Below, one piece after another: positions 1 through 30,244 of a stretch of 41,160 nucleotides of DNA. The stretch's first letter is position 1. Every line of letters starts with the position of its first letter. The notes beneath the pieces were generated by a model. It ran no database searches. It was given only the letters and a program-made list of their open reading frames with translations, and was not told where the DNA came from. This stretch comes from Planctomycetota bacterium (GTDB lineage: Bacteria; Planctomycetota; SZUA-567), in the NCBI GenBank assembly GCA_031270685.1, contig JAISXA010000057.1:1-41160 (forward strand). Reading direction: 5' to 3'. A program made the translations under genes and the position numbers.

Positions 1-1395
1 AATGCCCGCGATTTGCATGAGCAGTCCCGAAGCGGCTCGTTGCCCTGTGGAGAGCGGATATATGGGCAATGCAGCGATTGTTCCCAAGGTTGCGCTGAAA
101 CCATCACCTATCTGGTCAAGAATGCGGCGGTGGTCGTGCATTCACCCATCGGCTGTTGCAACAACGCATCCAATTACCACATTCAATCCGGCATTGTCAC
201 CAAGCTCAGGGGGACGGTTCCGGTGCCGGTGCGGGTGATCTGTTCCAACATCTCCGAACAGGAAACCGTCTACGGCGGACGGGAAAAGTTGCGGGAAGCG
301 ATTGACGAGGCATACCGGCGATTCCATCCGGCGGCGGTGTTTGTGCATTCGTCGTGCGCGGCCGGCATTGTCGGCGACGACATTGAATCCGTGGCCGACG
401 AGAAGGAGGATGAGCTGGGCATACCGGTGGTGCCGGTGTATTGCGAAGGCTTCAAATCGAAGATTTGGGCCACCGGGTTTGACGCCGCCTTCCACGGAAT
501 CCTCCGCAAAATCGTCCGGCCCGCGGAGAAAAAACAGCCCGACCTGGTGAACCTGTTCAATTTCGAGGGCAGCGACACATTCAGGCCGATGCTGGAAAAA
601 CTGGGATTGCGCACCAATTATGTCATCCCGCTTGCCGATGTCGACGTCATAGCGACGCTTTCCGAGGCTGCCTGCACGGCGCATATTTGCGAGACGCTGG
701 CAATGTACGCGGCGAAAGCGCTGGAGCAGAATTTCGGCGTTCCGGAAGTGAAATCCCCGCCGCCTTTCGGCCTGGAATGGACTGACCGCTGGTTGCGCGA
801 GGTGGCCAGGCTCACCGGCAGGGAAAACGTCGTCGAGGACGTCATCGCGGCCGAGCATGCCCGGGTGTTGCCTGACATAGAAAAAGTGCGCGCCGGGCTG
901 AAAGGCAAAAAAGCCTATATCTTCGCCGGCGACTCCTATGCCCACAGCCTGGCCAATGCGGCGCTGGATATCGGCCTCGAAGTCATCGGCATCACCACGC
1001 TCCATCATGACCAATTGACGGACGGCAAGGACAACGCCTTGGATTCCCTGGGTCAGCTGGTGAATGAAAGGGGAAATATCGAGCCGTTTACGGTCTGCAA
1101 CAAACAGCCTTTCCAGTTGTTCAAGATAATGAAAAAAATCCGTCCCGATATCTTGATCGTCAGGCACATGAACATGACCGTTCTGGGCAGCAAACTGGGC
1201 ATTCCGACCATTCTCGAAGGCGACGTCAACATCAGCGCCGGCTACGACGGCATCGCCAAACTGGGTCGGCGCATCGAAAAGGCGATACGGACGCGGAAGA
1301 TATTGGAAACCATCGCCAGCCATGTCGAACTGCCCTATTCGGAGTGGTGGCTTGAGGAAGAGGATCCCTTTTATTTCGAGCGGGGGCGGGCATGA
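1..1395 (+). CDS. Nitrogenase component-1-like protein, D-like subunit (5'-truncated by window edge)
   Basis: Reading frame is open from base 1 (NARDLHEQSRSGSLPCGE...). Motifs CSQGCAETITYLVKNAAVVVHSPIGC, SSCAAGIVGDDI and YCEGFKSK match the oxidoreductase/nitrogenase component 1 family. Stop TGA overlaps the next ATG (ATGA). Confidence 0.88.
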   Translation, partial: NARDLHEQSRSGSLPCGERIYGQCSDCSQGCAETITYLVKNAAVVVHSPIGCCNNASNYHIQSGIVTKLRGTVPVPVRVICSNISEQETVYGGREKLREAIDEAYRRFHPAAVFVHSSCAAGIVGDDIESVADEKEDELGIPVVPVYCEGFKSKIWATGFDAAFHGILRKIVRPAEKKQPDLVNLFNFEGSDTFRPMLEKLGLRTNYVIPLADVDVIATLSEAACTAHICETLAMYAAKALEQNFGVPEVKSPPPFGLEWTDRWLREVARLTGRENVVEDVIAAEHARVLPDIEKVRAGLKGKKAYIFAGDSYAHSLANAALDIGLEVIGITTLHHDQLTDGKDNALDSLGQLVNERGNIEPFTVCNKQPFQLFKIMKKIRPDILIVRHMNMTVLGSKLGIPTILEGDVNISAGYDGIAKLGRRIEKAIRTRKILETIASHVELPYSEWWLEEEDPFYFERGRA

Positions 1396-2744
1396 GCGGG
1401 GTCATTGAACAGCCACGATTTTCCTGCGCCCTCGCCGCCCAACAGACGGTGCTTGCCATTCCCAGGGCGCTCCCCATCGTTCACGCCGGTCCGGGCTGCT
1501 CGGCCAAGGTTTTTCAATTCGCATCCTATGGCGCCGGGTATCAGGGGGAAGGCTATGGCGGCGGCTGGGCCGTCAGCTGCACCAATTCGAGCGAGCAGGA
1601 GGTGGTTTTCGGCGGCGAAGACAAGCTGCGGCAACTGATAACGGGCGCTCTCCAGGTGTTGAAGAGCGACATGTTTGTCGTTCTTTCCGGCTGCACCGCC
1701 GGAATCGTCGGCGACGACGTGGAACAGGTCGCCTCCGAATTCGCGGACGCCGACCGGCCGGTGATCGGCGCGGAGACTTCCGGCTTCAAGGGCAACAGCT
1801 ATTTCGGCCACGAACTGGTGGTCAAGAAAATCATCGGGCGGCTTCTGGACGACGCGGAACCGGATATCCGGCCCGGCCTGGTCAACGTATTTTCCGTCGT
1901 TCCCGGCCAGAATCCCTTCTGGCGGGCGGATCTTGAGGAGATCAAGCGCCTTCTGCAGGCTGTCGGCCTCGGCGTCAACATCCTATTCGGAAACGAATCG
2001 GCCGGGGTGAGCGAATGGCGCGACATTCCCAACGCCCAGTTCAACCTGGTGTTGTCCTCATGGGTCGGACTGGAGACGGCGGAGCTGTTGAGGGAAAAAT
2101 ACGGCACGCCGTATTTCCACTTTCCCTATGTGCCGATGGGCGCGGCGGGGACCTCGAAATTCCTGCGCGCGATCGGAGACTTCGCCGCGCTTCCGGCCTC
2201 GCGGGTGGAAGCGGTGGTGGCCGGGGAGGAGAAGCGTTTTTACGGCTACTTCGTGGCGCTGGCCGATTTCATTTCCGAATCGCGCAATAATCTGCCCTTT
2301 GACCTGTACGTCATAGCCGACAGCAGCTACGCCATCGGCGCCGCCGATTACCTGGTCAACGAACTGGGTTTCGCGCCGCAAATGATTTACCTAACCGACG
2401 TGGCTGACACGAGAAAGCATGCCGCGATTGAAAGGATTCTTCTGGATTCGTCGCCCGAATTCGCCGGCCGCGTCCGTTTTGAAATGGATGGCGGGAAAAT
2501 CCAGGCCGATTTGCGGGCGCGGCTGGGGAATTCCGGTCAGGCCGCGATTCTGGGCAGCACCTGGGAGGACGCCCTGGCGGCGGAAAACAACAATCTTCTG
2601 GTGCGGATGAGCTTGCCGATAAACGATGACGTGATAGTTACCCGCAGCTTCGCCGGGTACAACGGCGGCTTGCGCCTGCTTGAAGAAATCTATGCCGGCG
2701 TTTTTCGCAAAGGCAATATCGCCCAGACCACCCAGACGCAGTAG
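1392..2744 (+). CDS. Nitrogenase component-1-like protein, K-like subunit
   Basis: RFSCALAAQQTVLAIPRALPIVHAGPGC...SGCTAGIVGDDVEQV: Cys pattern and GDD motif of NifK-like proteins; ATGA overlap with the upstream gene. Confidence 0.87.
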   Translation: MSGVIEQPRFSCALAAQQTVLAIPRALPIVHAGPGCSAKVFQFASYGAGYQGEGYGGGWAVSCTNSSEQEVVFGGEDKLRQLITGALQVLKSDMFVVLSGCTAGIVGDDVEQVASEFADADRPVIGAETSGFKGNSYFGHELVVKKIIGRLLDDAEPDIRPGLVNVFSVVPGQNPFWRADLEEIKRLLQAVGLGVNILFGNESAGVSEWRDIPNAQFNLVLSSWVGLETAELLREKYGTPYFHFPYVPMGAAGTSKFLRAIGDFAALPASRVEAVVAGEEKRFYGYFVALADFISESRNNLPFDLYVIADSSYAIGAADYLVNELGFAPQMIYLTDVADTRKHAAIERILLDSSPEFAGRVRFEMDGGKIQADLRARLGNSGQAAILGSTWEDALAAENNNLLVRMSLPINDDVIVTRSFAGYNGGLRLLEEIYAGVFRKGNIAQTTQTQ

Positions 2745-2766
2745 ACGGACTTGGGAGTCGGCTAAC

Positions 2767-3222
2767 TTGGGAAACGGCAGGCGAACATGTTTAGTGGCGA
2801 TAACCTCCAGCGATGGCGGGCATATCGACCTGCACTTCGGCAAGGCGCGGGAATTTCATATTGTCGAACTCGATGTCGACAAGGGCGAATGGATTTCGCG
2901 AGAGATACGCGCCATCGCCGCCGCTTCAGCCGATATTGGCGGGATTGACGGGTTTGAAGGGGAATATGGCGGCGGTTGCACCGGGTCCCGCGATCAGTTG
3001 CTGCGCGGCATAGGCGATCTTTTAGCGGACTGCCGGTATCTGTTGACCAGGAAAATCGGCATAAGGCCATACAAATTTCTCATGCAACGCGGCATCAGCA
3101 GCCTGGAATCGCCATTGGAGATTTCGGATGCGTTGGGGAAACTGGCCGTTTACCTCAGGAAGAAAAACATTACGGAGCGGGAGCCGGTCCATGGGAAAGC
3201 TGTCGTACCCGGATTTCTTTAA
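2767..3222 (+). CDS. NifX/NafY/NifB-C-terminal-domain-like (dinitrogenase Fe-Mo cofactor biosynthesis family) protein
   Basis: LVAITSSDGGHIDLHFGKAREFHIVELDVDKGEW...DLLADCRYLLTRKIGIRPYKFLMQRGI fits the NifX-type domain. Start TTG 2767 is inferred (GGGAG about 10 nt upstream); no good ATG in frame. Confidence 0.75.
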   Translation: MGNGRRTCLVAITSSDGGHIDLHFGKAREFHIVELDVDKGEWISREIRAIAAASADIGGIDGFEGEYGGGCTGSRDQLLRGIGDLLADCRYLLTRKIGIRPYKFLMQRGISSLESPLEISDALGKLAVYLRKKNITEREPVHGKAVVPGFL

Positions 3223-4834
3223 CCATGTTTTCGGGCCGGTCATGCAGCCTGGATCCAGCGGCGCGTTCGCCGGCGTCTGCCGGATCGGCAATGTTGCGCG
3301 CGCGCTGGTTCCCGGCGAACCGCGCCGGGTGCGATTCGCCTTCAATCCGGACCACCGCCGCCTCTGCGATCTCGTGAATTTCATGTCGGATCGCGGTTAC
3401 ATCGGCGGCGTTCTCGGACTGGGAACGGATGACGAAAGGTTGTTCTCCGCCCATGAATTGGCCGCCGGTCGGGGGCTGGCGTATGATTTCGCCATCCTGG
3501 ACCGTGCCGACGCCAACGCGCGGGCCGACAGCGTGCGGATACGCATAGAGGACGGCGAGGGCGGACAGGGAAGACTGTGGGCGACTTCCGTTGGCGGCGG
3601 CATGATAATGGTCCATGCCATCAACGGCTTCGCCGTCGAATGGCAGGCCGACAGCCATGCCGTTCTGGTGGAGGATCCGAATCGCGAAATAAACGGCGAA
3701 ACGCTTGGCTCCCTCCGGCGGATGTTGGGCGGACTTTTGCTGGATGTGGTCAAGACGTGGAATGATACCGGCGGCGTCGGCTATTTTATTGAAACATCGA
3801 AAGAAGCATCCGGCGATATTGTTGCGGCATTGCCCCCTGCGAACCGCCTTAAACCGATACGCCTGCCGGCGTTGCTGCCCGTAGTGAGCGCCGGGGATAA
3901 AAAGCCGCAATTGTTCCGGACGGTCGCCGAGTGGCGGCAGGTGGCCGAGGACGGAGGCATATCGTTCGTCCAGGCGGCCATTGAATATGAAAAGGCATCC
4001 TCGGGGTGGACGGAGGAGGAGATTTGGCGCTACTTCGGGATGCTGGCCGACCTTCTGCGCCGGCAAATCCACTCCCTTGGGGAAGTGGGGGTCGACAACG
4101 CCAAAGACACGCCGTTGTTGCCGATTTATGGGCGGAAATGGGACGCCCACGTCGCGGCCGGGCATCGGCTCTGCGATGATCTTACCGCCCGCATACTCGG
4201 GTACGCGTTTTCCACCAACGCCAAATTGCCGGGCGTGAGGATCGTTCCCGGCCCCATGGGAACCGGCGGCGGCTACCTGTTTTCAGCCCTCTTCGCCGTT
4301 CATGAAATGCGGGGCTTCGGCGGCGATAAACTGCTTGAGGCCCTGGTCGTGGCCGCCGGCCTCGGCGCATTGGCCTATACCCACACCAACGCCAGCGGGC
4401 AAGTCGGTTGCGTCGGCGAGACGGGCGTTTGTTGCGCCATGGCCGCCGGCGCGACAGTCTGGCTTGCCGGCGGCGACGGGCGGCAGGTTGAAAACGCGGC
4501 GTCAATGGCGCTTCAGGCGCATGTGGGCATTCCCTGCGACCCCATTGCCGGCGGCCTGGAATTCCCCTGCATCACGCGGACGCTGCGGGCGGCGGTCACG
4601 GCGCCGCTGTATGCCGACCTGGCCCTTGCCGGCATTGATCCGTTGATCCCCTATCATGAAATGCTTCAGGAGATCGAGCGGCATTATTCCGCCACCCCGG
4701 CCCGGGAACTGTGCGGTCCGACCTGCGGGTGCAACCGCACGCCGACGGCCGATCGTTTGCGAAAACAACTGGAGGAGACCGGACTGGGGCGTCTGAAACG
4801 CGGCTTTGATCCGGTGGCGAGAGGTGGACTTTAG
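3191..4834 (+). CDS. Iron-sulfur-dependent L-serine-dehydratase-like protein (fused beta+alpha domains), divergent
   Basis: Beta-like MGKLSYPDFFNHVFGPVMQPGSSGAFAGVCRIGNVAR; alpha-like ASGQVGCVGETGVCCAMAAGAT...HVGIPCDPIAGGLEFPCITR with the three Cys of the SDH_alpha [4Fe-4S] site. Confidence 0.8.
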   Translation: MGKLSYPDFFNHVFGPVMQPGSSGAFAGVCRIGNVARALVPGEPRRVRFAFNPDHRRLCDLVNFMSDRGYIGGVLGLGTDDERLFSAHELAAGRGLAYDFAILDRADANARADSVRIRIEDGEGGQGRLWATSVGGGMIMVHAINGFAVEWQADSHAVLVEDPNREINGETLGSLRRMLGGLLLDVVKTWNDTGGVGYFIETSKEASGDIVAALPPANRLKPIRLPALLPVVSAGDKKPQLFRTVAEWRQVAEDGGISFVQAAIEYEKASSGWTEEEIWRYFGMLADLLRRQIHSLGEVGVDNAKDTPLLPIYGRKWDAHVAAGHRLCDDLTARILGYAFSTNAKLPGVRIVPGPMGTGGGYLFSALFAVHEMRGFGGDKLLEALVVAAGLGALAYTHTNASGQVGCVGETGVCCAMAAGATVWLAGGDGRQVENAASMALQAHVGIPCDPIAGGLEFPCITRTLRAAVTAPLYADLALAGIDPLIPYHEMLQEIERHYSATPARELCGPTCGCNRTPTADRLRKQLEETGLGRLKRGFDPVARGGL

Positions 4835-4924
4835 GAGGAACTCGACGGAGGAAGAAATGCCTATTGTACCGATAAATTTCCAGTTTCGATGTAGACCGCC
4901 GCGCGGAAAATGGAACCCCGGGAA

Positions 4925-4971
4925 ACTTTGGAAAGAATCAAACCGCGGTTTGTTTGATTCTCGCCAAAAGT
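4925..4971. repeat. Type I palindromic repeat
   Basis: ACTTTGGAAAGAATCAAACCGCGGTTTGTTTGATTCTCGCCAAAAGT. Confidence 0.8.
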
Positions 4972-5054
4972 CCACGGTCAGTGAAATCCGGATTTTGTAA
5001 ACGCGATTGGCTCCATGGGATAATTCGCAAATTCAAGAAGGAGGAAGGCGTATC

Positions 5055-5888
5055 ATGAAACCGTTCTGGATAAATCTATTCGGCGTACTCGTCGCCGCCC
5101 TGGCGACGGTATTCGGATCGGCGGCGCCGGCTCAGGAAGTCCGTAAAATAACCATCGCCTTTGATCAAACCCTGTTCCCCGTGGCTTACGCGGATGAAGA
5201 CGGCAACGTCACCGGTTGCGACATCGAAGCCATGAAGCTGGTGGACGAGCTTCTCCCCCAGTATGAATTCGAATTCGTGGCCTTGGATTTCAATTCCATA
5301 TTCGCCGGCCTGCAAACAGGCAAATTCCAGATCGCCCTCACCGACAGCTACTGGACCGAGGACCGGGCACGGAGATTCCTGTTCCCCCGGAACAATCTCG
5401 GCGCTTCGCTGATCGGCTCCTATACCCTGAACAAAAACGGGCCGGTCAAAACCTTGAGCGAAGCGGCCGAAAAGGGTCTTACCCTATCTCCACTCATGCC
5501 CGGCGACGGCCTGAATTACGTGATCATCGAGCACAACCGGACCCATCCCGACCGGCAGGTCACCCTGAACACGATCGATGATCCCGCCTCCTGGCGCAAC
5601 GCGTTCCCGTGGGTGGCGGAAGGCAGATATGGTTTCGCGCTTACCCAGAAGTTCATGTGGGATACGCTGGTGCTTGCCGAGGACGGGGCGTTCCACGACC
5701 TGCTTGGAGTGCTCACCTATACCGACTTCGACACCGTCAAAACCTGGCCGGTCATCAACAAGGACGAGACCGAGCTGGCGGAGGCGCTTAACGCCCCGCT
5801 CGCCAAGCTCAGGGCCGAGGGCACGCTCCGCAAGCTGGCCATCCAGTTCCATGGCTATGACACCTGGGAATTTTTGAGCGACAAGTGA
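5055..5888 (+). CDS. Polar amino acid ABC transporter substrate-binding protein
   Basis: Signal peptide MKPFWINLFGVLVAALATVFGSAAPAQ, then KITIAFDQTLFPVAYADEDGNVTGCDIEAMKLV (SBP family 3-like); strong RBS AAGAAGGAGG. Confidence 0.85.
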   Translation: MKPFWINLFGVLVAALATVFGSAAPAQEVRKITIAFDQTLFPVAYADEDGNVTGCDIEAMKLVDELLPQYEFEFVALDFNSIFAGLQTGKFQIALTDSYWTEDRARRFLFPRNNLGASLIGSYTLNKNGPVKTLSEAAEKGLTLSPLMPGDGLNYVIIEHNRTHPDRQVTLNTIDDPASWRNAFPWVAEGRYGFALTQKFMWDTLVLAEDGAFHDLLGVLTYTDFDTVKTWPVINKDETELAEALNAPLAKLRAEGTLRKLAIQFHGYDTWEFLSDK

Positions 5889-5898
5889 CGATACGGCA

Positions 5899-5934
5899 CG
5901 GTACCGCGCCGCCGGCGCTGGCGGCGCGGTACCG
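5899..5934. promoter_or_regulatory. Perfect 15-bp stem intercistronic hairpin between SBP and first permease
   Basis: CGGTACCGCGCCGCC-GGCGCT-GGCGGCGCGGTACCG read directly. Confidence 0.85.
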
Positions 5935-5957
5935 CATTTTCGGCGTGAAGAGCCCGA

Positions 5958-6713
5958 ATGAACCCCAGGTTTATTTTTGAAACCTTCCTGAAACTTCTCC
6001 CGTATCTGACCGTGACCTTGGAGTACGTGTCGCTGTCGCTGCTGTTTGGAACGCTTCTCGGCTTCCTGGCGGCCGCCGCCAAACTCGGGCGCAACCGTCC
6101 GCTCCGTTGGCTGGCCAATGCCTATACGACCATCCTGCGCTGCACGCCGTCGGTCGTTCTCCTGTTCCTGGTTTTTTTCATCCTGCCGGCTGTTATGCGG
6201 AATTACCTGCGGATCAACGTCGACGCCTGGCCGGCTCTCTTCTTCGTTGTCGTGACCTTTACCCTTTTCCTGGGCGCATCGCAGTCCGAAGTCATGCGCG
6301 GCGCCTATCTGGCCGTGGATCGCGGACAGTTCGAGGCGGGGGTGTCGGTGGGAATGACCGAGTGGCAGTCATTCCGCCGCGTGGTCCTGCCGCAGGCGTT
6401 CTTCTTCGCCCTGCCCAACCTGACCAACACCGTCATTTATCTTTTCAAGGAAGGGTCGCTGGCCTTCACCATCGGGGTGGTCGACATAATGGGCAAGGCC
6501 TATCTGGTCAACGCCACCAACTTCGGCCTCAAGGCGCTGGATGTTTACCTGGCGCTGGCCCTCATCTATTGGCCCCTATCCGTTTTTTTTGAATGGCTGG
6601 GGCGGCTTCTGGAGCGGAGGTTCGGTTATACGCAGGTCAAGCCCGAAGCCGGGAAAACGGCCGAAAGCGTTCGCGGTCGCGGCCGGTCCTCGATTCGGGG
6701 GGTCAGGGCATGA
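5958..6713 (+). CDS. Polar amino acid ABC transporter permease
   Basis: Multi-TM HisM/GlnP type; EAGVSVGMTEWQSFRRVVLPQAFFFALPNLTNTVI is the PAAT permease EAA loop. Confidence 0.88.
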   Translation: MNPRFIFETFLKLLPYLTVTLEYVSLSLLFGTLLGFLAAAAKLGRNRPLRWLANAYTTILRCTPSVVLLFLVFFILPAVMRNYLRINVDAWPALFFVVVTFTLFLGASQSEVMRGAYLAVDRGQFEAGVSVGMTEWQSFRRVVLPQAFFFALPNLTNTVIYLFKEGSLAFTIGVVDIMGKAYLVNATNFGLKALDVYLALALIYWPLSVFFEWLGRLLERRFGYTQVKPEAGKTAESVRGRGRSSIRGVRA

Positions 6714-7411
6714 ATCTGGACTACGATTTCATGCTGGAAACGCTGTGGCTGGCGCTGCCGGGCATACTGGTCACCTTTGAGATAGCGCTGGTGGCGTCGG
6801 CGGCGGCCGTTCCCGTCGGACTTGTTCTTGGAATAATCCGCGCCAGGCGTGTGCCGCTTCTCAGCCAGCTGGCGCGGGTTTACATATCCTTCATCCGCGG
6901 CACACCGCTGATTTTGCAAATTTTTCTGGTGTATAACAGTTTTCCAAGCATTTTGGCCGTTGTCTTCGCCCGGCTGGGCGTTGAATACAATATTTTCAAC
7001 CTCAACCCCGTTGTTTACGCTTTCATTGTTTTCTCCATCAGCGAAACCGCCGTTCTGGCCGAGGTTTTCAGGGCCGCCATAACCACGGTCGACAAATCCC
7101 AGCTGGAAGCGGCGTATTCCGTGGGCATGACCGCTTTTCAGGGTTATCGGCGCATCGTCATTCCGCAGGCGATGAGCGCGGCCCTGCCGTCTTTATGCAA
7201 TTCCATAACCGACCTGATCAAGGCGACTTCGCTCGCCTTCACCATGTCGGTCATGGAAATCACCGCCATCGCCAAGAAGCAGGGCGCCATGAAACTATCC
7301 TTTATCGAGGCCTATCTCGATATATTTCTGCTGTATTGCATTTTGATCTTCACGGTGGAGAAGGTGCTGAAAATCTTGGAAAAACGCGCGCGCGCGTATC
7401 AACAGGCGTGA
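6710..7411 (+). CDS. Polar amino acid ABC transporter permease (second)
   Basis: [67 protein letters not shown] overlap with the upstream permease. Confidence 0.88.
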
Positions 7412-7427
7412 AAAACGGGGACAGACC

Positions 7428-8180
7428 ATGTTGGCGGTGACCAATATTCATAAAGCGTTCGGGACCAATGAGGTCCTCCGGGGCGTCGACATCATGGTGG
7501 AGAAGGGCGATGTGGTGGTATTGCTCGGCGCCAGCGGCTCCGGGAAGACCACGCTCCTGCGCTGCATCAATTTCCTGGAACTGGCGGACCAGGGCCATAT
7601 CCGTGTCGGCGGCATAGACATCGCTTTCCGCGACGCCAGGAAGAAGGACATCCATGCCATCAGGCGAAAAATTTCCTTCGTTTTCCAGAATTACAATCTC
7701 TTCAACAATAAAACCGCCCTGGAGAATGTCACCGAAGGTTTGATCATCGGCCGCGGAATGCCGAAAAGCCAGGCTGTCCGCATCGGCAAAGCCTGCCTGG
7801 ACAAGGTTGGCCTGGCCAATAAATTCGACAGTTATCCCGGTCAGCTCTCCGGAGGGCAGCAACAGCGGGTGGGCATAGCAAGGGCGGTGGCGGTCAACCC
7901 CGAGGTCATTCTATTTGACGAGCCCACCTCCGCCCTGGATCCGGAACTGATCGGCGAGGTTCTTGACGTCATGAAACGCTTGGCGACGGAAGGCACCACG
8001 ATGCTGATCGTCACCCATGAAATGAGTTTCGCCCGGGATGTGGCCACCAAAGTTGTGTTCATGGATGAGGGGAACGTCGTCGAGTCCGGGCGTCCAAAGG
8101 AGATTTTCGTCAAGCCAAAGGAAAGGCGGACCCGCCAATTTCTGCAACGATTCCTTGGCGATTCCGACTACGCCATTTAA
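7428..8180 (+). CDS. Polar amino acid ABC transporter ATP-binding protein
   Basis: Walker [10 protein letters not shown], signature [14 protein letters not shown], Walker [13 protein letters not shown]. Confidence 0.93.
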
Positions 8181-17911: not shown

Positions 17912-19159
17912 TCAGATATTGTAGGCCCGCTCGTTATGTTCGCCCAGATCCAGGCCGCGCAGCTGCTCCGGCTCGTCGGCGCGCAGTTTCGTGAATACGC
18001 CGGTGACGGCGAGGGCGACCCGCGTGGCCGCGTAGCAATACAGCCAGGCGGCCGCGATCGACAGGCATTGCACGCCCATCTGGCCGGCGTTGCCCCGCAA
18101 CAGCCCGTCGACGCCCCCCATCGCGGCGGTCGCCCAGATGCCGGTCGCCAGCGCCCCCCAGGTGCCGCCCACGCCATGAATCGCCACCACATCGAGCGCG
18201 TCGTCGTAGCGGAAGCGCAACTTCAGCATCATGCCGCCGTAGCACAGCATGCCGCCGACAAAGCCGATGGCCAGGCCGGACGCCGGTTCGACAAACCCGG
18301 CGGCGGGAGTGATCGAGACCAGGCCGGCGAGAACGCCCGAGGCCGCGCCGAAGGTCGTCGGCTTGCCGTAGTGGAGCGTCTCCACGAACAGCCACCCGAG
18401 CAGCCCCGACGCGGCCGAAAGCTGCGTCGCCGCCATGGCGCTTGCCGCCTGGGCGTTGGCGGCGTAGGCTCCGCCCGAATTGAAGCCGAACCAGCCGAGC
18501 CACAGCAGACCCGCGCCGAGTATGGTCAGGGGCAGGTTGTGCGGCGCGATTTCGCCAAGTTCGAGGTTTTTCCGGCGCCCCAACACATGCGCCGCCGCAA
18601 GGGCCGCGGCGCCCGAACTCATATGCACCACCGCGCCGCCGGCGAAATCGAGCGCGCCGAGGCGTTGCAGCCAGCCGCCGCCCCACACCCAATGCGCCAG
18701 GGGCGAATAAACCATGAGCAGCCAGAGGGCGGAGAACAGGGCCATGGCCGGGAACCGGGTGCGCTCCGCGTAGGCTCCGGAAATGAGCGCCGGGGTTAGG
18801 CAGGCGATCATGCACTGGAAGGTCATGAACAAAACGTGCGGAATGCCGGGGACGGGGCCGTCGGCGGTCGCGCCGACGCCGCCAAGCAGCGCATGCTCCG
18901 CGCCGCCGATCACGCCGCCGATGTCGGCGCCGAAGGCGAGACTGTAGCCGATCGCCGCCCAAAAAACGCTCCCTATGCCCAGCATCGCGTAGGAGTGCAT
19001 GGTGGTCGAGAGGATATTCCGGTTCTGCACCAGCCCCCCGAAGAACAGCGACAATCCCGGAAGCATGAGAAACACCAGCCCGCTGCAAAGAATCATGAAA
19101 CCGGTGTTGGCGGCGAAAACTCCGGGATCGATCGCCGCCGCGTCCGCCAATTCCTTCAT
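17912..19159 (-). CDS. amtB: Ammonium transporter (Amt family)
   Basis: [89 protein letters not shown] overlap with ureG. Confidence 0.94.
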
Positions 19160-19782
19160 CGCCGTTGCCTTTCCGCCAGCATGCCCGCGGCGACGACGAA
19201 CTTTTCCACCGCGTCCACGCCGGATCCGTCCTTGAGATTGGTGAAGACGAAAGGCCGCCCGTCGCGGATCTTCTCCGCGTCGCGCGCCATGACCGCGAGC
19301 GACGCCCCGACCAGGGGCGCCAGGTCGGTTTTATTGATGACCAGCAAATCGGATTTCGACACGCCGGGACCACCTTTGCGGGGGATCTTGTCGCCGCCGG
19401 AAACGTCGATGACGTACAGGGTGAGATCGGCCAGCTCGGGGCTGAAAGTCGCGGAAAGGTTGTCGCCCCCGCTTTCGACGAACACCACTTCCAGCCCGGG
19501 ATGCCGCGCCGTCATCTCCTCGACCGCCTGGATGTTCATGCTGGCGTCCTCGCGGATGGCGGTGTGGGGACAGCCACCGGTTTCGACGCCGACGATGCGG
19601 TCGGCCGGCAGCGCCCCGTTCTTGAGCAGGAATTCGGCATCTTCGCGGGTATAGATGTCGTTGGTGACCACCGCCATGCTGTACCGGTCGCGCAGCCGCC
19701 GGCACAGCCAGTCAACCAGCGCGGTCTTCCCCGATCCCACCGGGCCGCCCACGCCGACGCGCAAACAGGGCCTTGCGTTCAT
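19156..19782 (-). CDS. ureG: Urease accessory GTPase UreG
   Basis: [56 protein letters not shown]. Confidence 0.96.
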
Positions 19783-19792
19783 TGCAGCCTCC

Positions 19793-20494
19793 TCAACTCC
19801 TGAACATCCTCGCGCGCTGTCCTTCGTGGGCAATGCTGGCTAGGGCCTGCCCGGCGAGCGAGGCGCCGATCTCCCCGTCGGACGCCGTTCCGGCCGCGGC
19901 GACGGCATCCTCGATGCGCGGCATGAGCGCGAGCAAAACCCTTCCCGCCGCGGTCTGCCCCAGGGGCATGGTTTTGAGCGCGGCCTGAATCTGGTTTTCC
20001 AGCCAGCTCCAGGCGAATGCCCGGGCCGGGTTCAGCCAGCCGTCCTCGGCGCCGGAGCCGCCGCCGAGGAAGACCGCCGCCGCCGCGAAGGCGCAGACAT
20101 GCCCCGGGGCGGGCCGTGCGCCGACCCAGGCGGGAATAAGCTTTTGCCCGCGCAGCATGCGCCACAGGGCGGCGCCCAGCCTGCTCTCCTCTTCCCACAG
20201 TTCGGCGGTTTCCCTTCCCGCCAGGATCTCGGCGTTCCATTTTTCCAGCGCCGCCCCGTCACCGCGCCGCGCCGCGAGCCAGCAGCGTTTCAGCAACGGC
20301 AGATCGAAACGCGCCAGCCCGTAGCGCAAAATGCCGCCAAGCCATGCGGCAAGACCTTCGGTGTCCCTCACCGCGCCCTGGTCGACGGCGCCGGCCAATC
20401 CCTGCGACCAGGCGAAAGCGCCTATGGGGAGCGCCGGGCTGGCGAGGTGGAGGAGGGGAAGGATTTCCGGGACCGGATCAATTCCCATGGCCAT
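19793..20494 (-). CDS. ureF: Urease accessory protein UreF
   Basis: [31 protein letters not shown]...; position in the ure cluster. Confidence 0.9.
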
Positions 20495-20933
20495 GGCACC
20501 CGCGGAAATGTTGTCCCGGCCCCGGCTCCGGGATGAACGCGGTTTCTTCGGCCCTCGCCGCCAGCCCCAGGGACGCGGCCATTTTCTCGAGCGCCGGGTC
20601 CGGCCGGAAGCGGAGAAAAAGGTCGCCCAACTGAAGCTCGGCATGGCGGTTGCCGAAATGATAGGCGGCGCGGGCGAGCGACGGCCAATCGGGGACGCGA
20701 ACGGTGATCACCTTTTCCGTCTTGCAGCGGACGACCGCGGTCGCGCCCTCCTTCGACCGCAGCACGTCGCCCTCCCGCATTCCCCGGCCGTGGGGAAGCA
20801 TCACCGCGGCTTCCCGTCCGTCGTCCAGCACCGCGCGCAGCCTGGTCCGGGAGCGCTGGTCGAAATCCAGCGTCAACCCCGCCGATCCGGCGGGAGCGGG
20901 GACCGGCCCCAAATTCTCCGTCAACTCCAGCAT
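20478..20933 (-). CDS. ureE: Urease accessory protein UreE
   Basis: TLDFDQRSRTRLRAVLDDGREAAVMLPHGRGMREGDVL...AAYHFGNRHAELQLGDLFLRFRPDPALEKMAASLGL; short HGHGN tail. Confidence 0.88.
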   Translation of the reverse strand: MLELTENLGPVPAPAGSAGLTLDFDQRSRTRLRAVLDDGREAAVMLPHGRGMREGDVLRSKEGATAVVRCKTEKVITVRVPDWPSLARAAYHFGNRHAELQLGDLFLRFRPDPALEKMAASLGLAARAEETAFIPEPGPGQHFRGCHGHGN

Positions 20934-20950
20934 CGTCCTTTCTCCTCTTC

Positions 20951-21005
20951 GTGGACTTTTGAAGAAAATCAATCGAACCGCCGATCGATTTCCCTCAAAG
21001 TCGAC
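20951..21005. repeat. Type I palindromic repeat
   Basis: GTGGACTTTTGAAGAAAATCAATCGAACCGCCGATCGATTTCCCTCAAAGTCGAC. Confidence 0.8.
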
Positions 21006-21018
21006 TCTTCGACGCCGG

Positions 21019-22739
<1,721 letters not shown>

Positions 22740-22740
<1 letters not shown>

Positions 22741-23048
22741 TATTTCCCCCTTTCCAAGGTTGCGCCGCGAAAGCCGCAGATCCGTCCCTCCCCGCCGTAG
22801 GCGACAAGGACGACGTTCCGCGTCTGCCCCGGTTCAAACCGCACCGCCGTGCCGGCGACGATGTCAAGGCGCATTCCCCAGGCCGCCTCGCGATCGAAGC
22901 TCAACGCCGGATTGGTTTCGGAAAAATGGTAATGCGACCCCACCTGGATCGGCCGGTCGCCGCTATTCGCCACCGCCACGGATACGCGCCGGCGTCCGGC
23001 ATTGAGGACGATGTCGCCCTCGGCGGTTTTGCATTCTCCCGGCATCAT
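22740..23048 (-). CDS. ureB: Urease beta subunit
   Basis: [48 protein letters not shown]. Confidence 0.95.
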
Positions 23049-23068
23049 ATGCTGCTGGCTCCTTTCCG

Positions 23069-23371
23069 TCAGAGAATCGGATCGTGAACGGTGACCAGTT
23101 TGGTCCCGTCGGGAAACGTCGCTTCGACCTGGACTTCGCGGATCATTTCGGGAACGCCGGCCATGACTTCGTCCCGGGTAAGCAGATTGCGGCATTCGCC
23201 CATCAGCTCGGCGACGCTTCGCCCGTCGCGCGCCCCCTCGAGCACGGCGAGACTGATGAACGCCACCGCCTCGGGATGGTTCAGCTTGACACCCCGCGCC
23301 TTGCGGCGTTCCGCCAGCAGTCCGGCGGTAAAAAGCAGCAGCTTGTCCTTTTCACGCGGCAACAAATCCAT
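23069..23371 (-). CDS. ureA: Urease gamma subunit
   Basis: [57 protein letters not shown]. Confidence 0.96.
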
Positions 23372-23384
23372 AACTTCCCTCCTG

Positions 23385-23437
23385 TGTGGACGTGTGGAGG
23401 AAATCGGGCCAACCGCCGCCCGATTTCCCCCAAAGAT
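23385..23437. repeat. Type I palindromic repeat
   Basis: GTGTGGACGTGTGGAGGAAATCGGGCCAACCGCCGCCCGATTTCCCCCAAAG. Confidence 0.75.
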
Positions 23438-23532
23438 GTTACTGCTTACGGACCAATGGGTTGATTTTTCGCCCTGTCGGGCGATAGCGCCGACCTTGCA
23501 ATAATTCCCGACGCAAAATGCAAACCCAAGAA

Positions 23533-23583
23533 ACTTTGGAGAGAATCAAACGGCGGTTTGTTTGATTTTCTCCAAAAGTCGAC
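23533..23583. repeat. Type I palindromic repeat
   Basis: ACTTTGGAGAGAATCAAACGGCGGTTTGTTTGATTTTCTCCAAAAGTCGAC. Confidence 0.85.
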
Positions 23584-23595
23584 TCCTGTGGGCTT

Positions 23596-24474
23596 TTAAA
23601 GATTCCAAATGCGCGGCGGGCTTGGCGGCCTTCCCAGCAAATACGGCCGCACCACGCTCCAGGACAGCCTTCCCACTTCGCCGGCTTCGCCCGCGTCGTC
23701 GCCAAGGTAGCGGACGGCCAGCGCGCCGTCGCGGAAGGTTGCGCCGGAACGGCCGGGCACGGTCGTCGCGAGCGCTTTTTTCAGTTCGCCCGCCGCCGCC
23801 GCCAGCGCCTCTGCGTCCGACTGCCGTCCGAACGCCCAGAAGTTCATGATTACGTTCCGCCCGGACAATCCGAAGCCGCCGGTCGCGAGCGCGTCATTGG
23901 CCGCGAACGCCAGGCATTCGGACCATACCGGCCTGCCGTTCCGCGTCAGACGCGTTGTTTGCCGCACCTCGCCCGCCGCGAAGGGGCGTTTCCCCGCCTT
24001 TCGCCCAAGAACCAGCGTGTCCCAACCCAAGAACCGGCTGTCGCCCCGCAGATCGACCAGGAGCGACAACCGCGCCCTGGCGCCGGCGAAGACGATGGTT
24101 TCCCGCGGCAGCCATTCGATCTCGCCGTCGTGCAGGCGCAGCCCGACCTCCTGCCGCTGGGGAACGCCGCATGAATCGGCGCGGTAAATCTTTCCCGCGG
24201 CCGGGGTGGTCGCCAGCACCCGGGCGCCGGCATTCACCGTCAGCATAATGGACAGGTCGTCGCCGCTGACCAGACCGCCCGGAGGATGCAGCAGGTAACA
24301 GTGGGCCGGCGCCGCCTCCCCGGGACGCCGCGGTTCCTCGGGGTAAAACAGGCGTTGCACGCGCAAAGGGCCGCGGAAGCTCATGCCGCGAAGGACGCTT
24401 CGCTCCCCGACCACGGAAAAGTCGAGCGCTACCCTGGCCGGCCATCGTCTTGTCGTCCCATAAGCGGAGTCCAT
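23596..24474 (-). CDS. ureD: Urease accessory protein UreD
   Basis: LLHPPGGLVSGDDLSIMLTVNAGARVLATTPAAGKIYR...GEIEWLPRETIVFAGARA. Confidence 0.93.
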   Translation of the reverse strand: MDSAYGTTRRWPARVALDFSVVGERSVLRGMSFRGPLRVQRLFYPEEPRRPGEAAPAHCYLLHPPGGLVSGDDLSIMLTVNAGARVLATTPAAGKIYRADSCGVPQRQEVGLRLHDGEIEWLPRETIVFAGARARLSLLVDLRGDSRFLGWDTLVLGRKAGKRPFAAGEVRQTTRLTRNGRPVWSECLAFAANDALATGGFGLSGRNVIMNFWAFGRQSDAEALAAAAGELKKALATTVPGRSGATFRDGALAVRYLGDDAGEAGEVGRLSWSVVRPYLLGRPPSPPRIWNL

Positions 24475-24478
24475 CCCG

Positions 24479-25174
24479 TCACACGGTCAGGAAGCTGCGA
24501 ATGGTGGCGCCGTCAAGCCCGGCCATGGAGCCGTCGCGGACGGCGTGCCCACGCTCCATGATCACGTAGCGGTCCGCTATCGCGCGTGCGAAGGGAATTT
24601 TCTGTTCGACCAGGACGACGGTTATATCCATCTCTCCGCACATGCGGCGGATGGTTTTGGCGATCTCGTTGACGATATTGGGCTGAATCCCCTCCGCCGG
24701 CTCGTCCAGGAGCATGAGCCGCGGCCCGATCGCCAACGCCCGGCCAATGGCCAGCTGCTGCTGTTGTCCGCCGGAAAGATCCCCGCCCAGCCGGTTCGCC
24801 ATGTCCGCGAGCGCCGGAAAGAAATCGAAGATAAAATCGGGAATTCTTCCGGAAGCGTCCCTCCTCGCCGCCAGGCCGAGCTCGAGATTCTCCCTCACCG
24901 TCAGCAACGGGAAAATCTGCCTGCCCTGGGGCACATACCCGAAGCCCAGCCTGGCCCGATCGCCGGGGGAAAGGCGGGTGATGTCCTCCCCGTCGAAGAA
25001 CACGCTTCCCGAGCGCGGGGGCAACAACCCCATCAGGCATTTGAGCAGGGTCGTCTTGCCGACGCCGTTTCTTCCCATGATGCAGGTGCAGGCGTTCCGC
25101 CCGGCATCCAGATTGAGGTCGCGGAGGATGTGGCTTTCCCCGTAAAACTGTTCCAGATGCTCCACCCTCAGCAT
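24479..25174 (-). CDS. urtE: Urea ABC transporter ATP-binding protein
   Basis: GRNGVGKTTLLKCLMGLLPPRSG, LSGGQQQQLAIGRAL; urt order next to ureD. Confidence 0.9.
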   Translation of the reverse strand: MLRVEHLEQFYGESHILRDLNLDAGRNACTCIMGRNGVGKTTLLKCLMGLLPPRSGSVFFDGEDITRLSPGDRARLGFGYVPQGRQIFPLLTVRENLELGLAARRDASGRIPDFIFDFFPALADMANRLGGDLSGGQQQQLAIGRALAIGPRLMLLDEPAEGIQPNIVNEIAKTIRRMCGEMDITVVLVEQKIPFARAIADRYVIMERGHAVRDGSMAGLDGATIRSFLTV

Positions 25175-26079
25175 AGCGCCTCCCCCAAATAGGCCTCGAT
25201 CACGGCGGGGTGGCTCTGGATGTAATCCATCCCGCCTTCGGCGAGAACCGCGCCCTGGTGCAGCACGGTGACGGTCTTCTGGGCGATGGCGCGGACGAAC
25301 TCCATGTCGTGTTCAACCACCATTATGCCGTGTTTGCCTTTGAGTTCGTGCAGCAACGCGACGGTCCGATCGATCTCGCGCGGCGTCATTCCCGCGACCG
25401 GTTCGTCCAGGAGCAGCAGCCGGGGGCGTTGCATCAGCAGCATGCCTATCTCCAGCCAGTGTTTTTGCCCGTGGGAAAGAAGGCCGGCCCGTCGCGCGCG
25501 AAGGTCGGAAAGCTCTATTCGCGCCAGCGTCTTCTCGATGAAATCGCGCTCTTCGCCGGAGAGGCGCGCCCGGAAGGTTTTCCAGACCGTTTTGGGGCCG
25601 GCGAGGGCCAGCTCGAGATTTTCAAGCGCGGTCAGCGCCTCGAAAACCGAGGGTTTCTGAAATTTCCTGCCGATTCCCGCCTGCGCGATGGCCACCTCGT
25701 CGCTGGCGAGAAGGTTCAGGTCGCGGGTGAACCAGGCGGAACCGCTGTCCGGCCGGGTCTTGCCGGTGATGATGTCCATGAGCGTGGTTTTGCCCGCGCC
25801 GTTGGGACCGATGACGCAACGCAGTTCGTCCTCCTTGATGTACAGGGTGAGATCGTTGATGGCCTTGAACCCGTCGAAGCTGACGTTTATTTTTTCCAGA
25901 TACAGCAGGATGCGTTGGTAGCGCTCCATCGTTTTCGGAGGACGGCTGCGGGGACGGCCGCCCCTGGAACCCAATCCGACATGGGGATCCGGGGATTCGT
26001 CGGGGAGGTCGTGCACAATGACGATTTGCGATTCGCTCGTCTTTTTTTCCGGGGACGCCGGCGTGGCGTAGATTCTCAT
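25168..26079 (-). CDS. urtD: Urea ABC transporter ATP-binding protein
   Basis: GPNGAGKTTLMDIITGKTRPDSG, LSHGQKHWLEIGMLLMQRPRLLLLDEPVAGMT (UrtD-type). Confidence 0.9.
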   Translation of the reverse strand: MRIYATPASPEKKTSESQIVIVHDLPDESPDPHVGLGSRGGRPRSRPPKTMERYQRILLYLEKINVSFDGFKAINDLTLYIKEDELRCVIGPNGAGKTTLMDIITGKTRPDSGSAWFTRDLNLLASDEVAIAQAGIGRKFQKPSVFEALTALENLELALAGPKTVWKTFRARLSGEERDFIEKTLARIELSDLRARRAGLLSHGQKHWLEIGMLLMQRPRLLLLDEPVAGMTPREIDRTVALLHELKGKHGIMVVEHDMEFVRAIAQKTVTVLHQGAVLAEGGMDYIQSHPAVIEAYLGEALC

Positions 26080-27224
26080 GGTTCCGCTCCCCCGCTCGCT
26101 CCGGCGGCGGCCGCGCCGCCGGCCCGGCGCCCGCCGCGCCCGCGCGGCGCGAGAACGCGTTCAAACAAACCCGCCAGCCCGTCGGGCAGGACCAGGGGCG
26201 TCAGGATGAACAGGCCGCCGAGCGCGAACAGCCAGCCGTCCGGCCAGGCGGCGGTGAACCAGGTCTTGGCCGAGTTGACCGCCACCGCTCCCAGCACGGC
26301 GCCGTATAGTTTTCCCCTCCCGCCCAGCGCCACGCAAATGACCACCTCCACGGACTTGACGGGGGCGAACTCGCCGGGGTTTATGATCCCCGCCTGCGGC
26401 ACGAACAAGGCGCCGCCGAGACCGGCGATCGCCGCCGATAGGGTGAAGACCGCGAGCTGAACCCTTTCCACCCGGTAGCCGATGAAGCGGGTCCTGCTTT
26501 CCGCGTCCCGGATCGCGGTCGCGATTCTGCCCAGCCGGGAGACCACGATCAGGCGGCAGGCGATATACGCGCCCATGAGCGCCAGGGCGGAGGCGACGAA
26601 GAGGGCGGTGCGCATGGCTTGGGTATGGAGATCGAAGCCGAGAAGGGTTTTGAAGTCGGTCAGGCCGTTGTTGCCGCCGAAACCCATTTCGTTGCGGAAA
26701 AACGCCAGCATCAGCGCATAGGTCAGGGCCTGGCTCATGATGGAAAAGTAGACGCCGCTCACCCGCGAACCGAAGGCCAGCCAGCCGAAAACGAAGGCCA
26801 GGAGAGCCGGCGCGGCGAAAACAAGGGTCAGGGACCAGATGAAATGCCCGCTGCCCCGCCAAAACCACGGCAAGTCCTTCCAGTCGAGAAACACCATGAA
26901 GTCCGGCAGCAGGGCGTTGCCGTATACCCCCTGGGCGCCGATGCACCGGGTCAGGTACATGCCGAGGGCATAGCCGCCGAGCGCGAAAAAGGCGGCATGG
27001 CCCAGGCTCAATACGCCCATATAGCCCCACACCAAGTCGAGCGCCAGGGCGAGAATGGCAAGCGCCAGGTATTTGCCCAGCAAGGTCATGGTGTAGCTGG
27101 AAAGGTGGAAGGGCGATTCCTCGGCGCTAAGCCCCCCCGCCGCGGCGACGGCGGTGAAGCCGGCCGCGAGCGCGAGGAACGAAACGGTCGGGGCGTCGAA
27201 CGCCCGATAGCGCGGTCCGGCCAT
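26076..27224 (-). CDS. urtC: Urea ABC transporter permease
   Basis: LALDLVWGYMGVLSLGHAAFFALGGYALGMYL...GNNGLTDFKTLLGF. Confidence 0.9.
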   Translation of the reverse strand: MAGPRYRAFDAPTVSFLALAAGFTAVAAAGGLSAEESPFHLSSYTMTLLGKYLALAILALALDLVWGYMGVLSLGHAAFFALGGYALGMYLTRCIGAQGVYGNALLPDFMVFLDWKDLPWFWRGSGHFIWSLTLVFAAPALLAFVFGWLAFGSRVSGVYFSIMSQALTYALMLAFFRNEMGFGGNNGLTDFKTLLGFDLHTQAMRTALFVASALALMGAYIACRLIVVSRLGRIATAIRDAESRTRFIGYRVERVQLAVFTLSAAIAGLGGALFVPQAGIINPGEFAPVKSVEVVICVALGGRGKLYGAVLGAVAVNSAKTWFTAAWPDGWLFALGGLFILTPLVLPDGLAGLFERVLAPRGRGGRRAGGAAAAGASGGAEP

Positions 27225-27225
27225 G

Positions 27226-28833
27226 TCAGGACTCCGCCGCCCGGCCCTGTTGCGGGAACAGTCCGCGGGGACGCTTTTGGATAAACAGGATTATGAACAC
27301 CAGGATGAAGATCCTGGAAAGCATGGCGCCGCTGAAAGGTTCCAGCGCCTTGTTGGCGATGCCCAGTATAAGGCCGCCGATCATGGCGCCCCACAGGTTC
27401 CCCACCCCGCCGAAGACGACCACCATGAACGAATCGACGATATAGGCTTGCCCGAGATTCGGTCCCACGTTGGTGATCTGGCTCAGGGCGACGCCCGCCA
27501 GTCCGGCGACGCCCGATCCCATTCCGAAGGTGAGGGCGTCCACCCGCGCGTCGCGGACGCCCAGCGCCCGGGCGATGGCACGGTTCTGCGAAACCGCCCG
27601 CACTTCCAGCCCGAGGCGGGTCCAGCGCAGCGCCGCGTAGATAAGGAAAAAGACGCCGGCGCTGAAGACGAGGATGTAAAACCGGCCGCGGGTGACGTTG
27701 AATGAGCGTCCGATCTGCCACATGCCGCTCATGAACGCCGGGTTTTCCACCGCGCGGTTGAGCGGCGAGAAAATGCTGCGAACCGCTTGCTGTAGAATCA
27801 GGCTGACGCCGAAAGTGGCGAGCAGCGTCTCCAGCGGCCGGCTGTACAAAAAGCGGATGATGCCCCTTTCCATGACCATCCCGATCGCCCCGGCGATCAG
27901 GAACGCGGCGGGAACGGAGAGGAACAGCGCCGCTGCGCTGTTGCCGGGCAGCAGCCGCTGCATTCCCCACGCGACGTAGGCGCCGATCATGATCAACTCG
28001 CCGTGGGCCATGTTGATGACGCCCATGACGCCGAAAGTGATGGCCAGGCCGATCGCGGCAAGCACCAGGATGGAACCGAGGCTGAGTCCGAAAAAAGTCG
28101 TTTCCGCGATCGCGGTCCAATCCCGGCCGACCTTGCCCCAGTACAGGGCGTCGGCCGCCGCCGAGGCGACTTCCCGCCGCGGAGAGGCGGCAAGGAGCTC
28201 CAGCGCCAGCCCGGCCGGGGGTTGTCCGCCGGCGGAAAGCCATTCCACCGCCCGCAACAGCGTTTCGGTATCGCCGTCCGCATCCTTCGCCAGGCGTATT
28301 CCCAAAGCCGTGCGCAGGTTTTTCGCCGTCGCCGGATCCTTCTCCGCCTGGATCAACGCCGTCAACGCCTCCCGTTCAAGTTCGGGAGCGCCGATTTCCA
28401 TCAACGCGGCCGACGCCGTCCTTCTTTTTTCCGGATCCGGGTCGCTTAGGCGACGGCGGTTGAGTATGGCGGCGATCTCCTTCCGCTGCTTGTTGTCGAC
28501 GGCGCTTTTTTTCAGTCTCGCCGCGGCGACGCCGGCGTCTTTCCCGTCGAGATCGAGAAATACCCCGTTTTCCTGGATAAACACGGCGCCCGAATCCTTG
28601 TCGCAATAGAGCGCGCCGTCCAGCAGGGCGGAAAGCAGGCGCGTGGACGGCTCGGAGGCGTCGCCGCTCAACGCGGCGATGGCAAGATCGCGATCCTTCA
28701 CTTTCGAACCCGACAACGAGGCGCGAATCCCGTCTTCAAGCCATGTCCGCCCCGCGTCCGCCGCCGGCGAAACCCCGGCGGGCGCGATCGCGAGAACGAC
28801 GCCAAGCAAAGTCAAGCTGCGGATGGTCCTCAT
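27226..28833 (-). CDS. urtB: Urea ABC transporter permease with long N-terminal extracytoplasmic domain
   Basis: AIGLAITFGVMGVINMAHGELIMIGAY; about 220-aa N-terminal helical region typical of UrtB. Confidence 0.92.
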   Translation of the reverse strand: MRTIRSLTLLGVVLAIAPAGVSPAADAGRTWLEDGIRASLSGSKVKDRDLAIAALSGDASEPSTRLLSALLDGALYCDKDSGAVFIQENGVFLDLDGKDAGVAAARLKKSAVDNKQRKEIAAILNRRRLSDPDPEKRRTASAALMEIGAPELEREALTALIQAEKDPATAKNLRTALGIRLAKDADGDTETLLRAVEWLSAGGQPPAGLALELLAASPRREVASAAADALYWGKVGRDWTAIAETTFFGLSLGSILVLAAIGLAITFGVMGVINMAHGELIMIGAYVAWGMQRLLPGNSAAALFLSVPAAFLIAGAIGMVMERGIIRFLYSRPLETLLATFGVSLILQQAVRSIFSPLNRAVENPAFMSGMWQIGRSFNVTRGRFYILVFSAGVFFLIYAALRWTRLGLEVRAVSQNRAIARALGVRDARVDALTFGMGSGVAGLAGVALSQITNVGPNLGQAYIVDSFMVVVFGGVGNLWGAMIGGLILGIANKALEPFSGAMLSRIFILVFIILFIQKRPRGLFPQQGRAAES

Positions 28834-28914
28834 GGCGGAATCCCAACTGCCGGATAGGGCAGGCCAAGGCGATGCGCCCGGCAGGCGGGACGCGGAATCC
28901 CGCCCGCCGGACCG

Positions 28915-28962
28915 GAAACGGAAGAGAAGCGAACGGCGGTTCGATCGACTTCCTCCAAAAGT
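28915..28962. repeat. Type I palindromic repeat
   Basis: GAAACGGAAGAGAAGCGAACGGCGGTTCGATCGACTTCCTCCAAAAGTCC. Confidence 0.7.
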
Positions 28963-28966
28963 CCGA

Positions 28967-30244
28967 TCATTGACCGCCGCAGGTCTTTGTTTTCACATTG
29001 TAATTGCCGCAGTTGACGGGATCGGTCCAGTCGGCGATCAGATCCCGCGAACCCTCGAGATGATCGGACCACGCGTCGCCCGGTACCAGGTCGTCGGTTT
29101 CCCACACCACCTGGAACTGGCCGTCGGACTGGATTTCGCCGATCAGAACCGGCTTGGTGAGGTGATGGTTCTTGAGGACCGTCGCCATGCCCCCGCCGAG
29201 GTTGGGAACGGAAATGCCGATTATCGCTTCGAGAACGGCGTCCACATCGGTGGAACCGGCTTTCTCGACCGCCTGGACCCAGGCGTTGAAGCCTATGTAG
29301 TGGGCTTCCATGGGATCGTTGGTGACGCGCTTTTCGTCCTTGGTGAAGGCGTGCCATTTCGCGATGAATTCGGCGTTTTCCTCGCTGTCGACGCTCTGGA
29401 AATAATTCCAGGCCGCGAGGTGCCCCACCAACGGCTTGGTGTCGATCCCGGAGAGCTCCTCCTCGCCGACGGAAAAGGCCATTACCGGGATGGCGGCGGC
29501 GGTCAGATCCTGATTGGCGAGCTCCTTGTAGAAGGGGACGTTGGCGTCGCCGTTAAGCGTGGAAACCACAGCCGTTTTCTTGCCGGCGGAGCCGAACTTC
29601 TTGATCTCGGCGACAATCGACTGCCAGTCGGAATGGCTGAACGGCGTGTAGTTGATCATGATGTCGGCGTCGACCACCCCCTGGGCTTTCAGATAGGCCT
29701 CGATGATCTTGTTGGCGGTGCGCGGAAAAACATAATCCGTGCCGGCCAGTATCCAGCGTTCCACCTCCAACTCGTCCCTGAGGTAATCGATGGCGGGAAT
29801 GGCCTGCTGGTTCGGGGCGGCGCCGGTGTAGATGATATTCCTGGAGGACTCTTCCCCCTCGTATTGCACGGGGTAGAAAAGAAGTCCATTCAATTCCTCG
29901 AACACCGGCAACACCGACTTTCTCGAGACCGAGGTCCAGCATCCGAAAACCACATCCACCCGGTCCTGGGTCAGAAGCTGCCTGGCCTTTTCGGCGAAGA
30001 CCGGCCAGTCGGAGGCCGGATCGACGACCACCGCCTCCAACCGCCTCCCGAGCAGGCCGCCCTTTTTGTTCTGCTCTTCGACCAGCATCAACATCACGTC
30101 TTTCAATGTTGTTTCACTGATGGCCATGGTCCCGGAAAGGGAATGCATGACGCCAACCTTGATCGTTTCGGCGGCGCCGGCCATGGCCGCGGAGATGCTT
30201 ATCAACAGGACTCCCAATAGCGCCAGCTTGACGTTTTTCTTCAT
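28967..30244 (-). CDS. urtA: Urea ABC transporter substrate-binding protein
   Basis: TIKVGVMHSLSGTMAISETTLKDVMLMLVEEQNKKGGLLGRRLEAVVVDPASDWPVFAEKARQLL. Confidence 0.94.
   Translation of the reverse strand: MKKNVKLALLGVLLISISAAMAGAAETIKVGVMHSLSGTMAISETTLKDVMLMLVEEQNKKGGLLGRRLEAVVVDPASDWPVFAEKARQLLTQDRVDVVFGCWTSVSRKSVLPVFEELNGLLFYPVQYEGEESSRNIIYTGAAPNQQAIPAIDYLRDELEVERWILAGTDYVFPRTANKIIEAYLKAQGVVDADIMINYTPFSHSDWQSIVAEIKKFGSAGKKTAVVSTLNGDANVPFYKELANQDLTAAAIPVMAFSVGEEELSGIDTKPLVGHLAAWNYFQSVDSEENAEFIAKWHAFTKDEKRVTNDPMEAHYIGFNAWVQAVEKAGSTDVDAVLEAIIGISVPNLGGGMATVLKNHHLTKPVLIGEIQSDGQFQVVWETDDLVPGDAWSDHLEGSRDLIADWTDPVNCGNYNVKTKTCGGQ

Follow-up and report, generated by a model that had tools for sequence, protein, structure and literature searches.

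A serine-dehydratase-like protein, P0001, is encoded beside nitrogenase-like genes at one end of a Planctomycetota contig, which raises the question of what it does there. The window analyzed was the whole stretch of 41,160 nucleotides (assembly GCA_031270685.1, contig JAISXA010000057.1), and the genes and motifs described from 1 to 8180 lie on its forward strand. The original prediction was of a [4Fe-4S] lyase scaffold with altered substrate recognition and a new Cys-rich tail. That observation is real, but the tail needs a different reading and the neighbors can be identified more closely. The occurrence of P0001 with an importer and MarDK in two unrelated bacteria suggests a role in the uptake and breakdown of a sulfur-containing amino acid. 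A partnership of a variant of the [4Fe-4S] serine-dehydratase family with a Mar-type reductase is unreported in the literature searched (open-licence papers only), in which no paper linked serine dehydratase to Mar loci; its function and substrate are what we infer below.

Family membership and active site of P0001

P0001 is encoded by a stop-free ORF of 547 amino acids at 3191..4834. An alternative start at 3128 may give a protein of 568 amino acids. It is a fusion of SDH beta and alpha domains, annotated as a putative divergent [4Fe-4S] lyase. Pfam SDH_alpha matched it at 5.6e-32. TIGR00719 sda_beta (2.8e-26) and TIGR00718 sda_alpha (7.2e-33) covered residues 12-165 and 241-533. Their scores of 93 and 114 bits are far under the NCBIfam L-serine ammonia-lyase equivalog cut-offs of 161 and 243 bits, respectively. 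The only PDB relative by sequence was 4RQO, the Legionella L-serine dehydratase LpLSD (PMC12647591). On these matches membership of the serine-dehydratase family is secure, and P0001 is a far-diverged relative of the iron-sulfur serine dehydratase.

Motifs were compared in an alignment of 31 homologues and invariance was judged across 13 canonical L-serine dehydratases. P0001 shares with the [4Fe-4S] L-serine dehydratases (SdaA/SdaAA-AB; LpLSD 4RQO) the beta-then-alpha domain order, the three cluster Cys and the SxGGG, CDP and PC motifs. The alignment confirmed that the cluster Cys are kept, as noted originally, at C407 (VGCVGETG, 4409..4411), C449 (GIPCDP, 4535..4537) and C460 (FPCITR, 4568..4570). 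Thirty-six of the 71 invariant columns are retained, mostly in the cluster scaffold, including S22, S23, D67, G135-G137, P355, E410, C407, C449, D450 and C460. P0001 departs at 35, where the canonical residues include H25, H64, H111, N113, T356, Q408, N464 and D489. At 33 of these 35 columns the canonical residue is likewise missing from L017, the close homologue from a Coriobacteriales genome.

Loss of the SSSHT motif was likewise confirmed by the alignment. GPSSSHT reads QPGSSGAF in P0001, and QPGSSGAFAGVCRIG replaces GPSSSHTAGAxRIG at residues 19-33 (3245..3289). A stronger loss, absent from the original prediction, is that of GHGTD, which is replaced by NFMSDRG at 3377..3397. The His column (H64) is F64 in both P0001 and L017. 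His61 of the Legionella enzyme is likely the catalytic base and its alanine variant is inactive (PMC12647591). We take His61 to be the GHGTD His, equating the two by position rather than from a reading of the structure. Besides the putative catalytic base, P0001 lacks two more invariant His, including that of HPN. The PT, CQAE and RNA motifs are lost as well, and an internal LCx4GC replaces the C-terminal Cys. The changes at H25, H64, T356, Q408 and N464 are not common in ordinary SdaA orthologues; a Cys tail in general is partly so. A THT motif at 4379..4387, kept in L017, may provide a new active-site residue (H398).

With the cluster ligands kept and the substrate and catalytic positions rebuilt, the predicted retained scaffold and recognition of something other than L-serine fit well. 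The known catalytic His can be lost while the cluster scaffold of serine dehydratase remains, which bears on substrate switching in this fold. The GHGTD His is also missing in two other groups of fused homologues. One subfamily (L002, L003, L018-L024) has THESQGSD-type sequences for GHGTD, SSSH without the Thr, and Cys-rich C-termini. The other (L025-L028) has QGAD or QASD for GHGTD and CDL for CDP, and keeps SSSHT.

The tail of P0001 reads LCGPTCGC (4709..4732, within ARELCGPTCGCNRTPTA). The aligned tails are LCSTQTGCC in L017 and LCTGRGGC in L051 of Photobacterium sp. DA100 (within LLCTGRGGCAGC). The common pattern is LCx4GC, and canonical enzymes have R-E-T-x-x-G-G-L/V there. The CxxxCxC noted originally is present, and arose by chance in 0.3% of shuffles of the P0001 sequence. 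Since the L017 and L051 tails differ, this exact motif is particular to P0001; only C508, G513 and C514 are shared, and C512 is found in P0001 only. A tail of this kind is nothing new, as the family often has Cys-rich C-termini, such as QCD in E. coli, CxxC in Coriobacteriia and CGTDEGCGSCG in L018. In the Legionella enzyme the catalytic cluster has C-terminal Cys458 as its fourth ligand, at the fourth iron site (PMC12647591). Most simply, the LCx4GC tail would be a shifted version of this removable ligand. Such a displaced ligand would explain the tail without a second metal, and the suggestion of an extra metal site or a thiol-reactive tail found no specific support. An extra metal site is unneeded given the common Cys-rich ends and the unconserved C512. 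AlphaFold, run on a two-sequence alignment, gave a pLDDT of 36, too low to place the tail near the cluster.

The Mar-type reductase and importer genes

Mar-type enzymes have a nitrogenase-type cofactor yet cleave C-S bonds. To our knowledge, the natural substrates of Mar subtypes are not known beyond the characterized R. rubrum enzyme. The window begins inside a gene for a MarD-type nitrogenase-like catalytic subunit (1..1395), the 5' end of which is cut by the contig edge. A MarK-type gene follows at 1392..2744 with a 4-nt overlap. The MarD-type protein scored 437 bits to chain A of 9d9u/9fmg compared to 143 for the next nitrogenase, and the MarK-type protein 385 bits to chain C of 9d9u compared to 80 for the next structure. 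The two structures, labelled 'Nitrogenase' in the table, are identified as the R. rubrum methylthio-alkane reductase because the Cys270/His429 numbering matches that of PMC12552129, where the Mar cluster ligands including these residues are described. Aligned to 9d9u, the MarD-type protein keeps the P-cluster Cys and the Cys270 and His429 equivalents, and the MarK-type protein keeps the Cys32/56/121 equivalents. All six P-cluster Cys and both [Fe8S9C] ligands are conserved in the pair.

The neighbors were accordingly classed as MarDK of the methylthio-alkane reductase type. Ordinary nitrogenase neighbors were ruled out, the Mar-type bit scores being far above those of the next structures. The idea that the Cys tail might co-occur with nitrogenase-like neighbors was positive and could be narrowed to MarDK-type neighbors, and the association recurs at L017.

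Between MarK and P0001 is a gene for a NifX/NifB-C-terminal-type cofactor-binding protein (2767..3222, start uncertain; PF02579, 6.9e-10), which overlaps the start of P0001 at 3191-3222. With the overlap at 1392-1395 this gives an operon-like run of MarDK, NifX and P0001. The window resembles marBHDK loci in the types of its MarD and MarK, with every cluster ligand present, and in a NifX-like partner as found in T. saccharophilum. It differs in the SDH-like lyase, which the papers searched do not describe at such loci, and MarH and MarB were not found on the contig (which begins inside marD) or in the 88.65%-complete MAG. The isethionate reductase IsrBHDK is a comparable case, being nitrogenase-like, cleaving a C-S bond and having an ABC importer of its own (PMC11423573). 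IsrD belongs to a different clade and keeps one of three P-cluster Cys, compared to three of three in the window D (PMC11423573). In the MarD tree the window D is a separate MarD subtype.

Genes for a polar amino-acid ABC importer come after P0001. They encode a family-3 (polar amino acid) solute-binding protein (5055..5888; PF00497, 1.6e-20), two permeases (5958..6713 and 6710..7411, with a 4-nt overlap; both PF00528) and an ATPase (7428..8180). The best NCBIfam model for both permeases was cystine permease, below cut-off, and that for the ATPase was TcyN-type (328 bits, below the cut-off of 406). With the cystine-model matches below cut-off, the importer substrate cannot be read from its sequence. 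The lyase and importer in one operon-like run narrow the Mar substrate candidates to polar amino-acid-like compounds. An inverted repeat, GAATCAAAC...GTTTGATTC (window 4935-4960), lies between the P0001 and solute-binding protein genes and is a possible operator.

The GC of the 1-8.2 kb region is 0.588 compared to 0.640, and this lower value is compatible with transfer. Misassembly or misbinning of the contig was judged unlikely because its FGAM synthase resembles those of same-family genomes (59-71% identical). The same contig has a nitrogen-acquisition region at 17912-30244 with an ammonium transporter, ureC and a branched-chain/urea-type ABC transporter.

Recurrence of the lyase and other Mar-type loci

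The only close homologue of P0001 was L017, from a Coriobacteriales MAG (G395) of a different phylum, with 57% identity over 523 amino acids. Beside it are genes for a LysR-type regulator, MarDK and an amino-acid ABC importer, and the contig ends within a second D-type gene. The lyase, importer and MarDK are thus found together in a second phylum. Between the two cassettes the SDH-like proteins are 57% identical, the ATPases 53%, MarK 37%, MarD 33% and the solute-binding proteins 24%. The 57% identity across phyla points to a constrained protein. Both MarH and MarB are present in G395. Spread over three contigs, that genome also has two genes of nifH type and at least three that are nitrogenase-like D genes (L017 16112-16882; L035; L034).

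Treponema saccharophilum pTS2 has two D genes, and in the MarD tree one groups with the window D and the other with that of L017, each at 100/100. The lyase thus accompanies two distinct Mar subtypes, and its pairing with MarDK looks repeated. The presence of the same lyase with two subtypes in turn favors function over shared history, with n=2. Neither the 394 further genomes sampled within the phylum nor 350 more from the class of L017 (~740 in total) yielded a close homologue, and no homologue was found in IMG/VR. A plasmid search gave distant homologues only. The case is held back by the two cassettes known with a P0001-type lyase and by a function that is predicted.

P0001 groups with L017 (100/100) on a long branch, and the Photobacterium protein L051 joins the pair (100/99), possibly by long-branch joining. 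L051 is 32% identical to P0001, lacks the GHGTD His and has LCx4GC. Unlike P0001 it keeps SSSH and the HPN-type His, and has no Mar genes or amino-acid ABC importer nearby. Its surroundings, read from translations, include a dipeptidase-like gene, AraC-type regulators and an MFS-type transporter. As L051 adjoins a dipeptidase-like gene without Mar neighbors, the subfamily need not be sulfur-specific.

Other Mar-type loci carry other sulfur enzymes and importers. A cysK gene lies beside Mar-type DK in L035 and L070, cystathionine-lyase/MetY-type PLP enzymes are found at L072 and L073, and an aminotransferase at L075. A MetNQ-type importer is present at L071 and NMT1/taurine-type importers at L074 and L079. 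L079 (1-17142) is the T. saccharophilum pTS2 locus, with two different Mar-type DK pairs and cysK, radical SAM, NifX, nifH-type, LysR and RidA genes; pTS2 has one marB-like and one marH-like gene. RidA is an enamine deaminase. One of the two DK pairs carries the NMT1-type importer. These loci suggest that importer and sulfur-enzyme modules may be interchangeable around Mar-type reductases.

Possible functions of P0001

By analogy P0001 would fill the sulfur-enzyme slot in the window. A sulfur amino acid is proposed as its substrate mainly for this reason, which is guilt by association. The reading that we tentatively prefer, at somewhat under an even chance, is that P0001 is a [4Fe-4S] amino-acid beta-eliminating lyase with a substrate other than L-serine, in an organosulfur-assimilation cassette with the importer and the Mar-type reductase. 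The ABC importer would import a polar, probably sulfur-bearing amino acid, which P0001 would bind via the open iron of its presumed cluster. C508 and C514 would act as the removable fourth cluster ligand, replacing the missing C-terminal Cys. Elimination of the beta substituent (H2S, a thiol or a related group) would give 2-aminoacrylate and then pyruvate and ammonia. MarDK, with MarH and MarB encoded elsewhere, would reductively cleave C-S bonds, either in the same compound or in a linked one. Against this, thiol release by P0001 itself would make the reductase partly redundant.

P0001 could instead still act on L-serine (or threonine) as a dehydratase whose active site has been rearranged, in which case the importer would bring serine and pyruvate would serve to reduce ferredoxin for the Mar-type reductase. 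Its best family models are those of L-serine ammonia-lyase. P0001 and L017 are also the only SDH_alpha proteins found in their respective genomes, so they could be their serine dehydratases. However, both genomes are MAGs (that of the window ~89% complete), which makes the absence of a second enzyme weak evidence, and a canonical enzyme is present in a same-genus genome. The loss of the catalytic base with two further invariant His, and scores far under the equivalog cut-offs, also make this reading rather unlikely.

A cysteine-using sulfur donor, either a CyuA-like desulfidase or a stand-in for NifS, would supply sulfide for assembly of the Mar metallocluster rather than break down a nutrient. 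The position of P0001 between an overlapping NifX-type cofactor protein and a cystine-like importer is in keeping with this. The L-cysteine desulfidase CyuA resembles P0001 in having an SDH-like catalytic domain and the lyase chemistry of a three-Cys [4Fe-4S] enzyme, and in vitro it transfers sulfur to other proteins (PMC12647591). A phmmer comparison of P0001 with E. coli CyuA gave no match and the GCTEP Cys/Glu catalytic pair is absent, ruling out CyuA membership. The gene is missing at most Mar-type loci and so is no general maturation factor, and a donor role is accordingly improbable. It is very unlikely that P0001 is non-catalytic or a hitch-hiker linked to Mar genes by chance, as the lost base and the two known loci might imply, given its 57% identity across phyla, retained cluster ligands and two separate Mar contexts.

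The preferred lyase reading can be taken further, to a bolder and more doubtful proposal. P0001 and L017 would form a new class of PLP-free [4Fe-4S] C-S lyase, dedicated to pairing with a nitrogenase-cofactor C-S reductase. The lyase would be one of several plug-in modules (importer, DK pair, sulfur enzyme) sharing one MarH/MarB, with which anaerobes would mine specific organosulfur amino acids. The pTS2 locus of Treponema saccharophilum is a culturable model for such modular Mar systems.
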